Source of the DNA: Clostridia bacterium
Lineage (GTDB): Bacteria; Bacillota; Clostridia; Christensenellales; Aristaeellaceae
Length of the DNA: 36,855 nt
Direction: 5' to 3'
Assembly: GCA_017469025.1 (NCBI GenBank)
Contig: JAFUHD010000140.1
Span: forward strand, 1-36,855
This document shows positions 9,815 through 36,855 of the stretch, in pieces (within the stretch, counting starts at the first letter, position 1; each line of letters begins with the position of its first letter). The position numbers and the translations under genes are program-made. The notes beneath the pieces are model-generated. The model was not told the DNA's origin, ran no database searches, and worked only from the letters and a program-made list of their open reading frames with translations.

Positions 9815-9830
9815 AGGAGACCCTCCTATA

Positions 9831-9875
9831 CTAACATAGTTGTGCTTTAGGCACCGTATCAATAGCAGATGCCAT
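9831..9875 (-). other. degenerate copy of the short-peptide element before pdp
   Basis: The minus strand reads AQALACQIM then ASAIDTVPKAQLC and TAG, ending 16 bases before the GTG of the phosphorylase gene. It matches the peptides before ddl and the esterase. Here no ATG, GTG or TTG stands at the position of their start; only an internal ATG (9875) would give 14 residues. Relative to the ddl copies it lacks two codons, so the frame is kept. Confidence 0.5.
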
Positions 9876-10012
9876 GATTTGACATGCCAGCGCTTGCGCC
9901 GGGTCATCTAACTTTGAGCTTTTGGTTTATATGACCGAATAATGGACAATGTTTCTTTTTTACTCAGCCGGTTCAGAGCATTCCTCAATATAAATCAGAA
10001 AGCCCAATCCTT

Positions 10013-32815: not shown

Positions 32816-33741
32816 CAATTCCACGCTGCAAGGACCAGAAAGAGCAGGCCGAAGGTATTATTGAACCAGAGCAGAAAAACACTGAAAGGCAGCCGCATGG
32901 AACCCAGGCTGTACAGTGCTTCCAGACGGTCTCCCAGGAACAACAGTATTGCCCCGAGAATCCGTACAATGCCCCTCACTATTTCCTCAATACCACTGCC
33001 CATCTGCGTGGCAGAAAAAGACACCGTAGCGGCAACCAGCAGAGCTGGCATAATACCGAGCACACCGGAGAGGATGCGCAGGAAAAGCGGCTGACGCCTG
33101 TTGGGGAGAATGATGATGGCATATAGGACCAGATGCGTCAGAAGCATGAAAATCATCATGGCCTGAAGCAGCATATTGTTTGCTACACCACGGTCCCTGT
33201 AGTGAACATAGTAAAAGATGACAGGACAAAGCATTGACATAGCGGCAATGATCCTGGCCGCTATGTAGACCTGCCTGATTTTGCCTGTGACCGGTTTATA
33301 TGAAAGTTCAAATGCTGTGGATACCCAGTTGAGCAAAATACACACTGCAGCTGCCGCGATCTCCCAAGTGCCTGAAAAAACACATCCGAATCCGGCCAAG
33401 GCGATCAGGAAAAGCTGCGTATAAAAACGCAGGCCCGCACCGGCAGAATCTATTGCAATCAGCCATTCAAACTGCCGACTGAAAAACTGTTTCAGACTGC
33501 CCAGTCCACCTTGAAGCTGCTCAGTGGTATCATCCAGAAAAAGGTCCATGTCATTCTCAGACCTGAAGTGAACAAACAGTCCGCCAATTGCATTCCGGAT
33601 ACTGGCCATAATCAGGCACAGATGCCATCCCAGCCGGCTTCCGGCAATCCGGATGCCTACGATCCGGAGAAGCACCGGTGCCTGCACAACCAAGCGATCA
33701 ACCCAGGAATCGAACTTCTGGTCGATCACGTTTTTATTCAT
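32815..33741 (-). CDS. multi-pass membrane protein of unknown function, coupled to ddl
   Basis: The 308-residue product has a soluble N-terminal part of about 100 residues and then six or seven hydrophobic helices (for example FYTQLFLIALAGFGCVFSG, VYIAARIIAAMSMLCPVIFY, LLQAMMIFMLLTHLVLYAII, FLRILSGVLGIMPALLVAAT). I recognise no family. Its ATG overlaps the TGA of ddl (ATGA), so its translation is coupled to a cell-wall ligase, which hints at a role in cell-envelope synthesis; this is inference only. A strong terminator closes the pair. Confidence 0.8.
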   Translation of the reverse strand: MNKNVIDQKFDSWVDRLVVQAPVLLRIVGIRIAGSRLGWHLCLIMASIRNAIGGLFVHFRSENDMDLFLDDTTEQLQGGLGSLKQFFSRQFEWLIAIDSAGAGLRFYTQLFLIALAGFGCVFSGTWEIAAAAVCILLNWVSTAFELSYKPVTGKIRQVYIAARIIAAMSMLCPVIFYYVHYRDRGVANNMLLQAMMIFMLLTHLVLYAIIILPNRRQPLFLRILSGVLGIMPALLVAATVSFSATQMGSGIEEIVRGIVRILGAILLFLGDRLEALYSLGSMRLPFSVFLLWFNNTFGLLFLVLAAWN

Positions 33742-34946
33742 ACTTTACTGCCTTTGGTTCCGGCTGTGACTTTCTGCAGAATCGTTGAGTCATATGCATA
33801 GACGCTGCGGTTCTTGTCAGCAAATGCTTCCATAGCACTTTCAATCATACGGTCGACAAGCTCTGGGAAATTGATGCCGGCTGCTTTCCACAGATAAAAT
33901 GCGAGAGAGCCCGGGATCGTATTGGGTTCCTCAACATAAAGAATGTCATTCTGGTCAAGAATAAAGTCAACCCTGACTGTTCCCCTGAAATCAAGCAGTT
34001 TGAAGATATCTATTGTCATTTCACGGATGCGTTTGGTCAGGCCTGCGTCAATCGGCGCCGGAAGCACACGGGACAGGGATTTCATTCCACCGCTCTGTGC
34101 GCCTTTGGTTCCGGAATTGCGCAGATATTTCTCCCAGAACGTAAGGAACGTATCATCTCCAGCGGAAACCGGCATCTCACATACGGAGGCAATAACATTC
34201 TCACCATATCCGACTGCTGCACAGTTAATCTCAACCGGATGCTCAATACCGACTTCGATCAGAATACGGCGGTCATATGAGGCGGCCAGAGTCAGTGCAC
34301 GGTCCAGCTCCTCCCGGTTTGAAACCTTTGATACACCAATGGATGAACCAAGCGATGCAGGCTTTACAAACATTGGATATTTGATTTCTTTTTCCGCCTG
34401 TTCAATAATCAGCAGACGGTCACGCTCCATCTTTTCACGTGTGAACCAGATGAAGTCGAGAACCGGAAAACCGGCGCCCCTCAGCAGCTGCTTCATGGCA
34501 ATCTTGTCCATGCCAACGCTCGAGCCCAGTACTCCTGACGAAGCATATGGAAGACCCGCCATCTCAAAAAGGCCCTGAATCGTACCGTCCTCACCGTTCA
34601 TGCCATGGAAAACCGGAATCACACATTCAATATGAGCCACCGGATCGGGCAGACGGCCGAAAAGCCCAGTCTTCTGAAGCGGCCAGCCCCACAGATCTCC
34701 GGAGCCGGAACTGATATCCAGAATGACCCGCTGTACATCCTTGCCCATCGGGTTAAACTCGCGGAATGTTTCTATCGACCTGAGTGCCTCTCCCGTATAC
34801 CACAGACCATCTCTTGAAATATATAAAGGAATTACGGTATGCCCAGCCGCCTCAACTGCCTCCATCAGCTGGAGCGCAGAGATAATGGATACATCATGTT
34901 CAACACTTCGCGATCCAAAGCACACCGCAATATTCATTCGTTCCAT
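33738..34946 (-). CDS. ddl: D-alanine--D-alanine ligase family protein
   Basis: The 402-residue product is an ATP-grasp ligase that makes the D-Ala-D-Ala end of peptidoglycan precursors. The catalytic Glu segment SVEHDVSIIS, PVFHGMNGEDGTIQGLFEMA, the nucleotide-binding MFVKPASLGSSIGVSKVSN and the metal-binding EEPNTIPGS are present. It is longer than typical Ddl (300-370), and the sequence after EEPNTIPG (SLAFYLWKAAGI) differs from the usual NT-x-PG-MT, so the second substrate could be another D-amino or D-hydroxy acid. ATG 34946 has AAAGGAGA about ten bases upstream. Two tandem copies of a short-peptide element precede it. Confidence 0.88.
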   Translation of the reverse strand: MERMNIAVCFGSRSVEHDVSIISALQLMEAVEAAGHTVIPLYISRDGLWYTGEALRSIETFREFNPMGKDVQRVILDISSGSGDLWGWPLQKTGLFGRLPDPVAHIECVIPVFHGMNGEDGTIQGLFEMAGLPYASSGVLGSSVGMDKIAMKQLLRGAGFPVLDFIWFTREKMERDRLLIIEQAEKEIKYPMFVKPASLGSSIGVSKVSNREELDRALTLAASYDRRILIEVGIEHPVEINCAAVGYGENVIASVCEMPVSAGDDTFLTFWEKYLRNSGTKGAQSGGMKSLSRVLPAPIDAGLTKRIREMTIDIFKLLDFRGTVRVDFILDQNDILYVEEPNTIPGSLAFYLWKAAGINFPELVDRMIESAMEAFADKNRSVYAYDSTILQKVTAGTKGSKV

Positions 34947-34973
34947 TCGAAACTCTCTCCTTTAATGACATAG

Positions 34974-35042
34974 TCATGCTTTCGGCACCGTATCAATCTC
35001 AGTTGTCATTGTTTGACAAACCAGCTCATAGCGCTGTGCCAA
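34974..35042 (-). CDS. short upstream ORF 1 before ddl (22 codons)
   Basis: Directly after AAAGGAG a frame starting with TTG reads (M)AQRYELVCQTMT then TEIDTVPKA and stops at TGA, 27 bases before the ddl ATG. The next four codons in frame are CTA TGT CAT TAA, the same end (LCH, stop) as ORF 2, so the TGA is a one-base change from CGA. The spacing of one base or less between AAAGGAG and TTG is tight. It belongs to the short-peptide family seen at four places here. Translation is plausible but not proven. Confidence 0.4.
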   Translation of the reverse strand: MAQRYELVCQTMTTEIDTVPKA

Positions 35043-35047
35043 CTCCT

Positions 35048-35128
35048 TTAATGACATAGTCGTGCTTTCGGCACCGTATCAATTGCAGTTGTCATGATTT
35101 GACAAACCAGCATGAAATGCTGGGCCAT
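35048..35128 (-). CDS. short upstream ORF 2 before ddl (26 codons)
   Basis: ATG directly after AAAGGAG opens a 26-residue frame: MAQHFM, then LVCQIMTTAIDTVPKA, then RLCH and TAA. The TAA overlaps the next AAAGGAG, which serves ORF 1. This is the best-preserved member of the peptide family, with ATG, Cys residues at positions 9 and 25, and no transmembrane segment. The Shine-Dalgarno to ATG distance is very short. A leader peptide is one reading; a translatable DNA repeat is another. Confidence 0.45.
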   Translation of the reverse strand: MAQHFMLVCQIMTTAIDTVPKARLCH

Positions 35129-35133
35129 CTCCT

Positions 35134-35289
35134 TTAATGACACAGCTGTGCTTTCAGCACCGGATCCAATGCAGGTTCCGCTTTATGCGTACAGGTATCT
35201 GGCCAATTGATTTTTCTGTAGCCAGAGCTTTCAGCACCGGTCAAACGTATTGCCGATTCTGGTGATGCAGGTGCTTTACACCGCACCAT
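35134..35289 (-). CDS. short upstream ORF 3 before ddl (51 codons)
   Basis: A 51-codon frame begins 13 bases after the esterase gene and ends LDPVLKAQLCH with TAA, overlapping the AAAGGAG that serves ORF 2. The last 13 codons match the end of the short-peptide family (IDTVPKAxLCH). The N-terminal part (MVRCKAPASPESAIRLTGAE) does not match the other copies. It contains an internal 14-base duplication (CCGGTGCTGAAAGC). No ribosome binding site precedes the ATG, so a decayed longer repeat is as likely as a gene. Confidence 0.3.
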   Translation of the reverse strand: MVRCKAPASPESAIRLTGAESSGYRKINWPDTCTHKAEPALDPVLKAQLCH

Positions 35290-35301
35290 AAGCTTTGTGT
35301 A

Positions 35302-36273
35302 TCATGGATTCCAGAACCAGAGCAGGGCATTGAAAGTATATTGATTGGATTGCTCGGGACCGTGGGTACCGCCCTGATACAGCCGGTAGGAAATGTTGCC
35401 GTCCGCTTCATTGTCTGCCAGGTGAAAAGTACGGCTGTAGTCATTCACCATGCTGCGGATCTGATATGCAAAACCCGATGCGGCAAAATCTTCGGTCCCG
35501 GTTGCGGTCCAGATGAAGAAATCCCTGTCCGTCCATCCGGATGAGCGGACCACGGCATCAATCCACTGACTGTCGCCCATATTGCCGCTCATGGGCATAA
35601 AATACCGGAAATAATCGAGACAGTGCTGGAAGGTGTGCCAGGTATTGACGCTGCCCATGCTGAACCCGCCAAAGCCCCGGTGATCCCTGCTGGCTTTCAG
35701 GCTTTCCGGACCGGTATCATAATTTGCCCAGGTATGAAACTGTCCTTCCACGGCGGGAATCAGATCATTGACCAGTTCGTTGTGAAACTGATCGGTCAAC
35801 TGGAGCGCCAGACTGTAGTCCCAACTGTCATGGTCACTGGTGTTGTTGTATGTAGGTGCCACCAGAATCAGGGGGTTCATGCGCCTATCCTGAAGGGCAT
35901 GGTCCACCGCGCACTTCAGTTCACTGGGATGTGACAGCGTACCCAGTACCGTTTCCTCGCTGCTCCATCCGCCGTGACTGAGATAGAAGATGTTGTAGGC
36001 TTTGCTTTCGTCATATCCATAGGGCAGATAAATCCAGGCGGCTTTTTTCAGCTTCTGGCTGTGCTGGGGATAGGAGAAGGATTCCCAGGTATCATATTCC
36101 AGCCGGACCAGGCTGCCTGCCTGTTCTGCATGCTGTCTGTAGTTTTCAGATATGATTTCCAGTTTTTCCGGAATATTGCGGGTGTTAATCATAAAGGGTT
36201 CCTCCGCATGCGCGATGCTGATGAGCAGAAACCAAAGAACAAGCAGGACCGCACCGATCTTTTTATCATGCAT
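35302..36273 (-). CDS. secreted esterase, alpha/beta hydrolase (feruloyl-esterase-like, CE1 type)
   Basis: The 323-residue product has a signal peptide (KKIGAVLLVLWFLLISIAHA) and an esterase domain of the D/enterochelin-esterase type (COG2382). AAWIYLPYGYDESKAYNIFY is the usual first strand, the nucleophile is Ser in GFGGFSMGSVNTW, and Asp (TGTEDF) and His (QGGTHG) complete the triad. CE1 members of this kind remove acetyl or feruloyl groups from plant polysaccharides; the substrate is a guess. ATG 36273 is five bases after AGGAG and overlaps the end of a short upstream ORF. A longer frame to 36315 is rejected. Confidence 0.85.
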   Translation of the reverse strand: MHDKKIGAVLLVLWFLLISIAHAEEPFMINTRNIPEKLEIISENYRQHAEQAGSLVRLEYDTWESFSYPQHSQKLKKAAWIYLPYGYDESKAYNIFYLSHGGWSSEETVLGTLSHPSELKCAVDHALQDRRMNPLILVAPTYNNTSDHDSWDYSLALQLTDQFHNELVNDLIPAVEGQFHTWANYDTGPESLKASRDHRGFGGFSMGSVNTWHTFQHCLDYFRYFMPMSGNMGDSQWIDAVVRSSGWTDRDFFIWTATGTEDFAASGFAYQIRSMVNDYSRTFHLADNEADGNISYRLYQGGTHGPEQSNQYTFNALLWFWNP

Positions 36274-36367
36274 GTGAACTCCTGTTATATAGGTGTGCTT
36301 TCGGCAACGTATCAATCGTAAATGTCAGTATTTGACAAACAAGCGCATTGCTCTGTGTAATCTCCAT
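36266..36367 (-). CDS. short upstream ORF before the esterase gene (33 codons)
   Basis: ATG 36367 opens a frame reading MEITQSNA, then LVCQILTFTIDTLPKA, then HLYNRSSHA and TGA. It matches the ddl upstream ORFs at LVCQI, IDT and PKA with the same spacing and no indels, although 10 or more codons differ. It starts near the aldo/keto reductase stop and ends inside the esterase start (CATGCATGA), an eight-base overlap, so ribosomes ending it would sit on the esterase start. No ribosome binding site is clear before it. Confidence 0.45.
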   Translation of the reverse strand: MEITQSNALVCQILTFTIDTLPKAHLYNRSSHA

Positions 36368-36368
36368 T

Positions 36369-36855
36369 TCATGCTTTTCTGGCCGGAGAACCGCCAAACA
36401 CTGCAGACATTTCCATGTGTTCAAGCTTTTCATCGATCTGTCTGACTTCTTCTTTCGTCAGCACGATTTCAGCAGAACCAAGGTTTTCATGAATACGTTC
36501 AATCCTGCGGGAACCGGGGATTGGCACAATGTAAGGCTTTTTGCAAAGCATCCATGCAAGGGAAATCTGCGCCGGAGTGGCCCGCTTTTCCGCAGCCAGC
36601 GTGCGGATCAGGGACATCAGCTGCCGGTTCTGCTCGAAAGCCTCCTCTGTATACTGAGGCATTGCACTTCGGTAATCTCCGGCAGAAAAGCGGTCTTCCC
36701 TGGAGAAGGCATCTGACAGGATGCCGTTTGCCAGCGGGCTGAAGGCAACATAACCGATGTTTAATTCTTCCAGTACTGGGAACAGGCCTTCATGCCATCT
36801 GGCCATCATGGAATATCGGTTCTGGATGCAGGTGACAGGGCATACCGCGTTTGCC
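36369..36855 (-). CDS. aldo/keto reductase, C-terminal part
   Basis: The gene runs off the right edge; the last 162 codons are present. The segment CPVTCIQNRYSMMARWHEG followed by LNIGYVAFSPLANGIL is the typical end of the AKR (beta/alpha)8 barrel, and the NADPH-binding PYIVPIPGSRRIERIHENLG is present, as in YajO/IolS-type reductases that reduce aldehydes or ketones. The catalytic Tyr and Lys lie outside the window. The stop TGA is one base from the ATG of the short ORF that precedes the esterase gene, so these genes are probably co-transcribed. Confidence 0.9.
   Translation of the reverse strand, partial: ANAVCPVTCIQNRYSMMARWHEGLFPVLEELNIGYVAFSPLANGILSDAFSREDRFSAGDYRSAMPQYTEEAFEQNRQLMSLIRTLAAEKRATPAQISLAWMLCKKPYIVPIPGSRRIERIHENLGSAEIVLTKEEVRQIDEKLEHMEMSAVFGGSPARKA

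Follow-up and report, generated by a model that had tools for sequence, protein, structure and literature searches.

Mini-genes upstream of ddl in a gut bacterium are copies of a small, hairpin-forming and probably mobile repeat with about 350 copies in the genome

The ddl locus

The window analysed here is a stretch of 36,855 nucleotides from the assembly of a Clostridia bacterium (GCA_017469025.1, contig JAFUHD010000140.1; 4.25 Mb in 373 contigs). It contains the D-alanine-D-alanine ligase gene ddl, preceded by a series of short tandem repeats (Table 1). As the original prediction had it, two of these are direct tandem copies of exactly 86 nt each, and they proved 85% identical. The third match in the tandem series covers 39 nt (35128-35166). 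The gene-proximal unit ends in AAAGGAG 10 nt before the ddl ATG at 34946; the Shine-Dalgarno (SD) position of ddl is occupied by the end of a repeat unit.

Table 1. Repeat copies and associated genes in the window
Feature	Position	Strand	Remark
Gene-proximal unit	34957..35042	-	Terminal AAAGGAG at the SD position for ddl
Second unit, near consensus	35043..35128	-	85% identical to the gene-proximal unit
Third unit, decayed; matches only model positions 27-85	35129..35187	-	
Possible trace of an older unit, 14-nt core GCTTTCAGCACCGG only	35227..35240	-	Weak
ddl, D-alanine-D-alanine ligase	33738..34946	-	Pfam Dala_Dala_lig N and C domains
Single diverged copy ending TATAGGAG	9823..9906	-	8 nt before GTG
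Single diverged copy immediately before the gene at 35302-36276	36287..36356	-	

The mini-ORFs at this locus are MSLKELAQRYELVCQTMTTEIDTVPKA (34974-35057), MSLKEMAQHFMLVCQIMTTAIDTVPKARLCH (35048-35143) and a third ORF of 51 amino acids (35134-35289) that ends in QLCH. Both the ORFs and their shared peptide core, LVCQ[I/T]MTT-x-IDTVPKA, are as originally described. The role of AAAGGAG as their SD is not borne out. This string sits inside the ORFs or touches the next TTG or ATG at zero spacing, and mini-ORFs with an internal AAAGGAG begin with ATG/GTG-TCA-TTA-AAG-GAG. Hence, it is not an ordinary SD for the mini-ORFs.

Nor is the arrangement specific to ddl, since further copies occur in the window and throughout the genome. 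The GTG just past the copy at 9823-9906 would start a pyrimidine-nucleoside phosphorylase gene. The gene at 35302-36276 has AGGAG 5 nt before its ATG, just past the matched stretch of the copy upstream of it.

In four close relatives ddl has an SD without the repeat unit, AGGAG in G023 and G002 and GGAGG in G004 and G016, positioned by eye at 6-10 nt before the ATG. The gene upstream of ddl in the window differs from that in the relatives, which suggests rearrangement upstream of the array. In the window, the region before the array (35302-36855) holds an aldo/keto reductase gene and a 324-amino-acid gene that has no Pfam match. Several relatives instead carry, immediately before ddl, a conserved and possibly murF-like ORF that ends in ..ENDLPDNY...

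Copy number and arrays in the genome

A 22-nt core pattern with at most three mismatches matched the genome 351 times, far beyond chance, as the reversed control pattern gave no matches. In the same assembly, searches with one unit, for which 40 of 321 candidates were scored, returned at least 75 matches at E ≤ 10. With 150 of 2507 candidates scored, a covariance model of 39 copies returned at least 173.

The arrangement of copies was studied in 100 stretches plus the window, together 1,001,737 bases, a non-random sample picked for holding copies. These stretches contained 285 copies in 182 arrays, comprising 113 single, 41 double, 22 triple and 6 quadruple arrays, and 32 of 44 distances between full copies equalled 86. 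Several contigs, among them C151, C136, C292, C325, C110 and C3, start within or beside a repeat copy. Possibly, the repeat is a cause of the fragmented assembly.

Fold of the unit

The left part of the unit, GGC-CCAGCAC-NNN-GTGCTGG, forms a 7-bp hairpin (P1). The right part consists of TGACA...TGTCA (P2) enclosing GTGC-CGAAA-GCAC (P3), followed by TTAAAGGAG, and the right end of the unit reads ...TCATTAAAGGAG. Among 34 distinct rows, 95.6% of the cells were paired (P1 95.0%, P2 98.2%, P3 93.4%), against 13-50% in slid controls. Two-sided changes were found at 5 pairs in 8 cells; a slide of +3 likewise gave 5 pairs, but in 5 cells. None of 500 shuffles, which ignore relatedness, reached the covariation score. 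P2 varies on one side only, and the changes are mostly compatible with G-U pairing on the gene strand. Thus, the units contain conserved helices, for which covariation is support rather than proof and for which sister species offer further support. An alternative hairpin, TTGTCA/TGACAA, has one pair broken in 10 of 39 rows, and TGACA/TGTCA is therefore preferred.

The sister repeats in two related genomes, G015 and G004, differ in their stems from the unit of the window and have a layout in common with it: GGC(C), a hairpin, (T)GTCAAA, a right domain and AAAGGAG. The G015 stem is CCGGTGC/GCACCGG or a close variant; of 14 segments, eight pair at 7/7, one at 6/7 and five at 0 to 4 positions. The G004 stem is CTGTCGC/GCGACAG; over 58 copies, 329 of 406 cells are paired, compared with 0.20-0.59 in slid controls. 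An outer helix CAGGCCTCA/TGAGGCCTG is visible by eye. One sister-family array in G004 (L196, 4167-4576) has five units of about 85 nt. A generic scan for GGAG plus a hairpin gave 116 hits versus 25 reversed in the sample from our genome and 29 versus 22 in G004, and is therefore useless for diverged families.

Unit ends and insertion target

The flanks were compared in 57 high-scoring single copies with complete ends. At the 5' side, random sequence gives way to A.63 A.77 A.88 G.88 G.84 A.93 G.89 (frequencies), then AT and the unit; at the 3' side, TTAAAGGAG is followed by random sequence. Most units thus have a genomic (AA)AGGAG at their immediate 5' side and end with an AAAGGAG of their own. 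In 34 of the 57 copies both strings are exactly AGGAG. In the remaining 23, none of the variant pairs match each other (0/23), although a few may be alignment offsets. This favours a 3' AGGAG encoded by the element rather than produced by target duplication. Yet, the letters of target and element end are identical, and the mismatch between variants may also stem from later mutation or alignment offset, so that target duplication may instead be the source of the 3' AGGAG.

In the sister families, a GGAG precedes the unit by no more than 8 nt in 15 of 61 copies from G004, against a background of 2.1%, and in 3 of 14 from G015; near the 3' end it occurs in 27 of 61 and 10 of 14 copies, respectively. 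A 5' GGAG is therefore enriched in these families, yet confined to a minority of copies. Many of these copies look old, or else the target rule may be looser there.

Interruption of a gene

One single copy (array 122, locus L121) lies inside a coding sequence, which reads ...CGG ACA AAG GAG [AT-unit-AAAAGGAG] GGT GTT AAC AGA AAA GCA... As it stands, the frame reads MRYEQEILEKIMYYDREEIMSSFPLYIYRTKE, continues for 26 unit codons to a stop, and is then followed in the same frame by KEGVNRKALEAAVDCA. In the relative G004 (L204), the corresponding sequence, MRYEQEILEKIMYYDPTGTMSIFPLYIYKTREKVNRQALETAVGYA..., is one uninterrupted open frame. By eye, the two flanks are collinear and no sequence has been lost. 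The relative has CGC GAG at the junction where our gene has AAG GAG; hence, it shows the uninterrupted gene and no target string. Because this copy lies away from any SD, the AGGAG string itself is the likely target.

Matches of both flanks to a relative were found for 7 of the 182 arrays, and we read six of these site pairs (arrays 122, 94, 132, 38, 62 and 124). Array 122 is the only clean pair of interrupted and uninterrupted sites among the six. At arrays 94 and 132 the relative has a diverged or sister-family copy. At array 38 it has GGAGGAG and no unit, with flanks too diverged to place the junction.

Position relative to gene starts

With ORFs called simply, without a gene finder, 16 of the 182 arrays had an overlap of over 70% with a called ORF. 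Among the other arrays, 152 had a called downstream ORF, which was co-directional in 122 and opposing in 30. The position of the terminal GGAG was evaluated in the 126 arrays whose 3' end was complete and whose sequence extended far enough, counting only starts that open at least 80 codons. Such a start lay 4-14 nt past the GGAG in 83 arrays (71 ATG, 7 GTG, 5 TTG), against 1753 of 20000 random positions (8.8%), and the distance was 6-10 nt in 75 of the 83, with a mode of 8 nt. The remaining 43 arrays have no start at SD distance.

Multiplying 351 copies by 182/285 and 83/126 gives an estimate of about 150 genes whose SD is supplied by the repeat. Outside the repeats, 51 of 122 AAAGGAG strings are SD-like and 60 of 122 lie in gene interiors, while only 4 of 161 arrays lie wholly within the interior of an ORF. 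Targeting of AGGAG, followed by the loss of insertions in coding sequence, suffices to account for the SD preference, which may be just purifying selection acting on AGGAG targeting.

Growth and decay of tandem arrays

Of 55 interior arrays with at least two copies, 44 had a higher score for the gene-proximal (3') copy than for the distal one (Wilcoxon p=3e-6). Counted outward from the 3' end, the copies averaged 81.9, 73.4, 59.5 and 36.5 bits (n=55, 55, 20 and 5). Possibly, this gradient could be due in part to selection on the gene-proximal SD.

Arrays might instead have grown mainly by replication slippage or unequal recombination from one ancestral insertion per site. Identity is indeed slightly higher between adjacent full copies than between copies in different arrays (0.899 vs 0.870), 28 of 46 adjacent pairs exceed the age-matched identity, and contig C151 (L018) carries three tandem copies of nearly equal score. 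However, a copy is strictly closest to its neighbour in just 5 of the 46 adjacent full pairs, which favours serial insertion over tandem duplication, and decay grows with distance from the gene. We therefore regard slippage as an unlikely main source of the arrays. The slightly raised identity within arrays makes some duplication or conversion likely; serial insertion at a regenerated AAAGGAG explains most arrays, and a minority may be duplications.

Coding capacity of the mini-ORF

The consensus frame, over 66 nt, is open in 138 of 153 unique copies from our genome, and the consensus stop codon overlaps the terminal AAAGGAG. In G015, two frames are open (12/14 and 13/14 copies), while in G004 three frames are open in 31, 29 and 42 of 61 copies, none of them strongly preferred. 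Internal length changes occur in 30 of 174 full copies, of which 26 break the frame and 4 are multiples of three. When each distinct substitution is counted once, the synonymous, nonsynonymous and stop changes number 40, 111 and 6, against 40.6, 110.8 and 5.6 expected. Weighting by frequency yields an excess of synonymous changes (444 vs 329.9), which comes largely from a few subfamily columns. A permutation of codon positions gave p = 0.10, or 0.14 without the hairpin columns. Relative to the consensus of our genome, two G015 copies show 10 and 11 nonsynonymous codon differences, against 2 and 1 synonymous ones, while their stem is retained. Among last copies, the mini-ORF is intact in 57 of 73 located at SD distance and in 32 of 40 others (Fisher p=1.0). 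These codon-level results imply that the peptide sequence is not what is conserved. We found no clear coding constraint on the peptide, although some copies may be translated.

The mycobacterial interspersed repetitive units (MIRU) invite comparison, as their mini-ORF has a role in translation. MIRU are described as apparently mobile repeats that insert at start codons, with an ORF that couples to the gene with minimal effect (PMC12548453); those in senX3-regX3 have units of 77 bp and 53 bp (PMC4213456). MIRU resemble our unit in being short tandem intergenic repeats at translation-start signals that cost the downstream gene little, and they are its closest functional analogue. Our arrays, too, consist of tandem units in intergenic positions preceding genes. 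Accordingly, one might suppose a MIRU-like mobile repeat in which selection on the element preserves the mini-ORF for coupling translation to the gene at the host site, a reading that fits the tandem habit, the similar functional logic and the open ORF in most copies. In contrast to MIRU, which lie at start codons and couple by a mini-ORF, our unit lies at AGGAG and supplies the SD. The overlap of the mini-ORF with the downstream start is absent; the conserved terminal feature is the SD, with a GGAG that varies between 5 and 14 nt from the start. Our unit also differs in that its hairpins show compensatory changes and a clear coding constraint is lacking, and the G004 family lacks a strongly preferred open frame. 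Selection for such coupling is thus quite improbable.

The original prediction proposed translated leader peptides, with termination and reinitiation carrying ribosomes through the tandem mini-ORFs to ddl and setting its expression. The open frames in our genome and in G015, the stop codon overlapping AAAGGAG and the frequency-weighted synonymous excess speak for it. However, most internal length changes break the frame, distinct substitutions show no synonymous excess, the two G015 copies differ mainly by nonsynonymous codons, and an intact ORF is equally frequent with and without a gene at SD distance. Moreover, the spacing between AGGAG and the ATG of the mini-ORF is 0 nt, and copies occur at many unrelated places. 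Leader-peptide coding as the main function was therefore rejected, and we consider coupling into ddl very unlikely. The repeat that the original prediction offered as its alternative, a small spreading unit with its own SD, is supported and can now be specified as a repeat that adjoins AGGAG and has AAAGGAG as its end.

A regulatory RNA acting in cis, such as a riboswitch, an attenuator or a protein-binding leader, spread over a regulon would account for conserved helices compatible with G-U pairing on the gene strand and for the many copies in 5' leaders, but it is very unlikely, given the arrays without a start at SD distance, the copy inside a coding sequence, the arrays facing opposing ORFs, the decayed tandem copies and an Rfam search of positions 33500-36500 of the window that found nothing above threshold and one microRNA match far below its threshold.

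Distribution and candidate transposases

Matches of our own type were found in 3 of 60 genomes by the unit search and in 3 of 29 genus genomes by the model search, our genome included in both. A 33-nt string from the 3' end occurs in two contigs of the genome_contigs set, which may leave out records of our own genome; they come from the roe-deer gut MAGs Clostridia bacterium RGIG4336 and Lachnospiraceae bacterium RGIG5021. One contig from RGIG4336, binned with G015 (G015:C43), carries own-type copies; its loci L031 and L033 match L287 at 100%. The 5' flank at L031 (= L287) is 94% identical to locus L105 of our genome, while the 3' side is ~80-84% identical to L066. This mix may reflect recombination between repeats, an assembly chimera or cross-binning. 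The last may apply because the other observed G015 copies are of the sister type, and the G015 stem count excludes this contig. Searches of plasmids and phages, as candidate origins, gave no match, and viral contigs held no exact match of a 38-nt string.

No autonomous partner with the ends of the unit was found in our genome, an incomplete assembly. It has four Y1_Tnp matches, all partial, and none was seen with both unit ends. The only one beside a copy lies on contig C14 and is cut by the contig end. A search for half-copies in 105 stretches likewise found a left half joined to a transposase only at this contig end (L161/L286), where ~25 nt of the unit precede the start of an IS200-like Y1 gene. 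The 29 genus genomes contain its inner hairpin string once. This IS200-like gene is either the partner or an insertion into a copy.

At Y1 loci of relatives, own-type matches appeared only at E ≥ 0.085. In G004, three G004-type copies (L233, 690-933) lie ~540 nt from a Y1 gene at 1474-1941, possibly by chance, as such copies are common in that genome. A Y1 gene of G015 was rejected as a RAYT; its sequence relatives fail to clearly track the repeat and no copy matched at its locus.

Comparison with other repeats

IS200/IS605 elements are described with a hairpin near each end, a fixed short string flanking the left end and a fixed tetranucleotide at the right end (PMC6006769). Like the ends of these elements and of the MITEs derived from them, our unit has a hairpin near each end, together with a short left-flank string (AGGAG, in the 57 copies of our genome) and a fixed right-end string. 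It differs in having no transposase inside and in its target, AGGAG. REP sequences with RAYT/TnpA-REP are comparable as well, being high-copy and mostly extragenic hairpins with a short string 5' of the foot and species-specific families, according to the same paper (PMC6006769). Their tags are given there as GTAG or GTGG, with CnGA for class 3 genes (PMC6006769), and elsewhere as CGTC (PMC3733652). Our unit differs by its AGGAG string in place of GTAG or GTGG, by its 86-nt format with two hairpins in direct tandem, and in that no intact RAYT was found in our genome. Because the enzyme was not identified, we file the unit as working like an IS200/IS605/REP-type element, not as a member.

BOX, RUP and SPRITE of Streptococcus pneumoniae are likewise small, interspersed and probably parasitic repeats, and can form ORFs and become operon leaders, as stated in the accessible portion of PMC3049150. 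In contrast to our unit, that portion describes no SD targeting or regeneration for them (PMC3049150). The open-access literature yielded no recognised element that inserts at and rebuilds an SD, which does not prove its absence from print.

A repeat that rebuilds its own target

We propose that the unit is a non-autonomous mobile element of ~86 nt, with a 7-bp hairpin on the left, a compound hairpin on the right and AAAGGAG as its last bases. It would insert immediately 3' of a host (AA)AGGAG string, AGGAG being the target rather than a by-product. Many of the AGGAG strings that tolerate insertion are SD sites, and hence the element would often land between an SD and its start codon. Its terminal AAAGGAG would then act as the SD at normal spacing, which should keep the downstream gene translatable. 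The regenerated AAAGGAG would also be a new target, leading to tandem stacking with an 86-nt period in which the oldest copy lies upstream and the youngest beside the gene, as before ddl.

To this reading, in which a non-autonomous element with two hairpins targets AGGAG, rebuilds the SD and stacks, we give a probability of about 0.78, and it is the best explanation of the data. The mini-genes before ddl are copies of a small hairpin-forming and probably mobile repeat of which this gut bacterium has about 350. Insertion by a trans-acting single-strand transposase (HUH/Y1, IS200/IS605- or RAYT-like) is a tentative suggestion, to which we would give less than even odds. We lean slightly towards a wider reading, namely that the unit and its sister families in related species represent a class of transposable elements that targets and rebuilds the SD, recolonises ribosome-binding sites without silencing genes and provides the SD of an estimated 150 genes.

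If true, homing on the ribosome-binding site and replacing the displaced signal would add to the ways in which a mobile element can avoid doing harm. The translation signals of many genes would belong to a dispersed repeat, which bears on the evolution of 5' leaders, and tandem growth would be explained without slippage. The results also serve as a warning that chains of small intergenic ORFs can be by-products of repeats. Finally, the AGGAG target rule makes both the enzyme and the mechanism directly testable.
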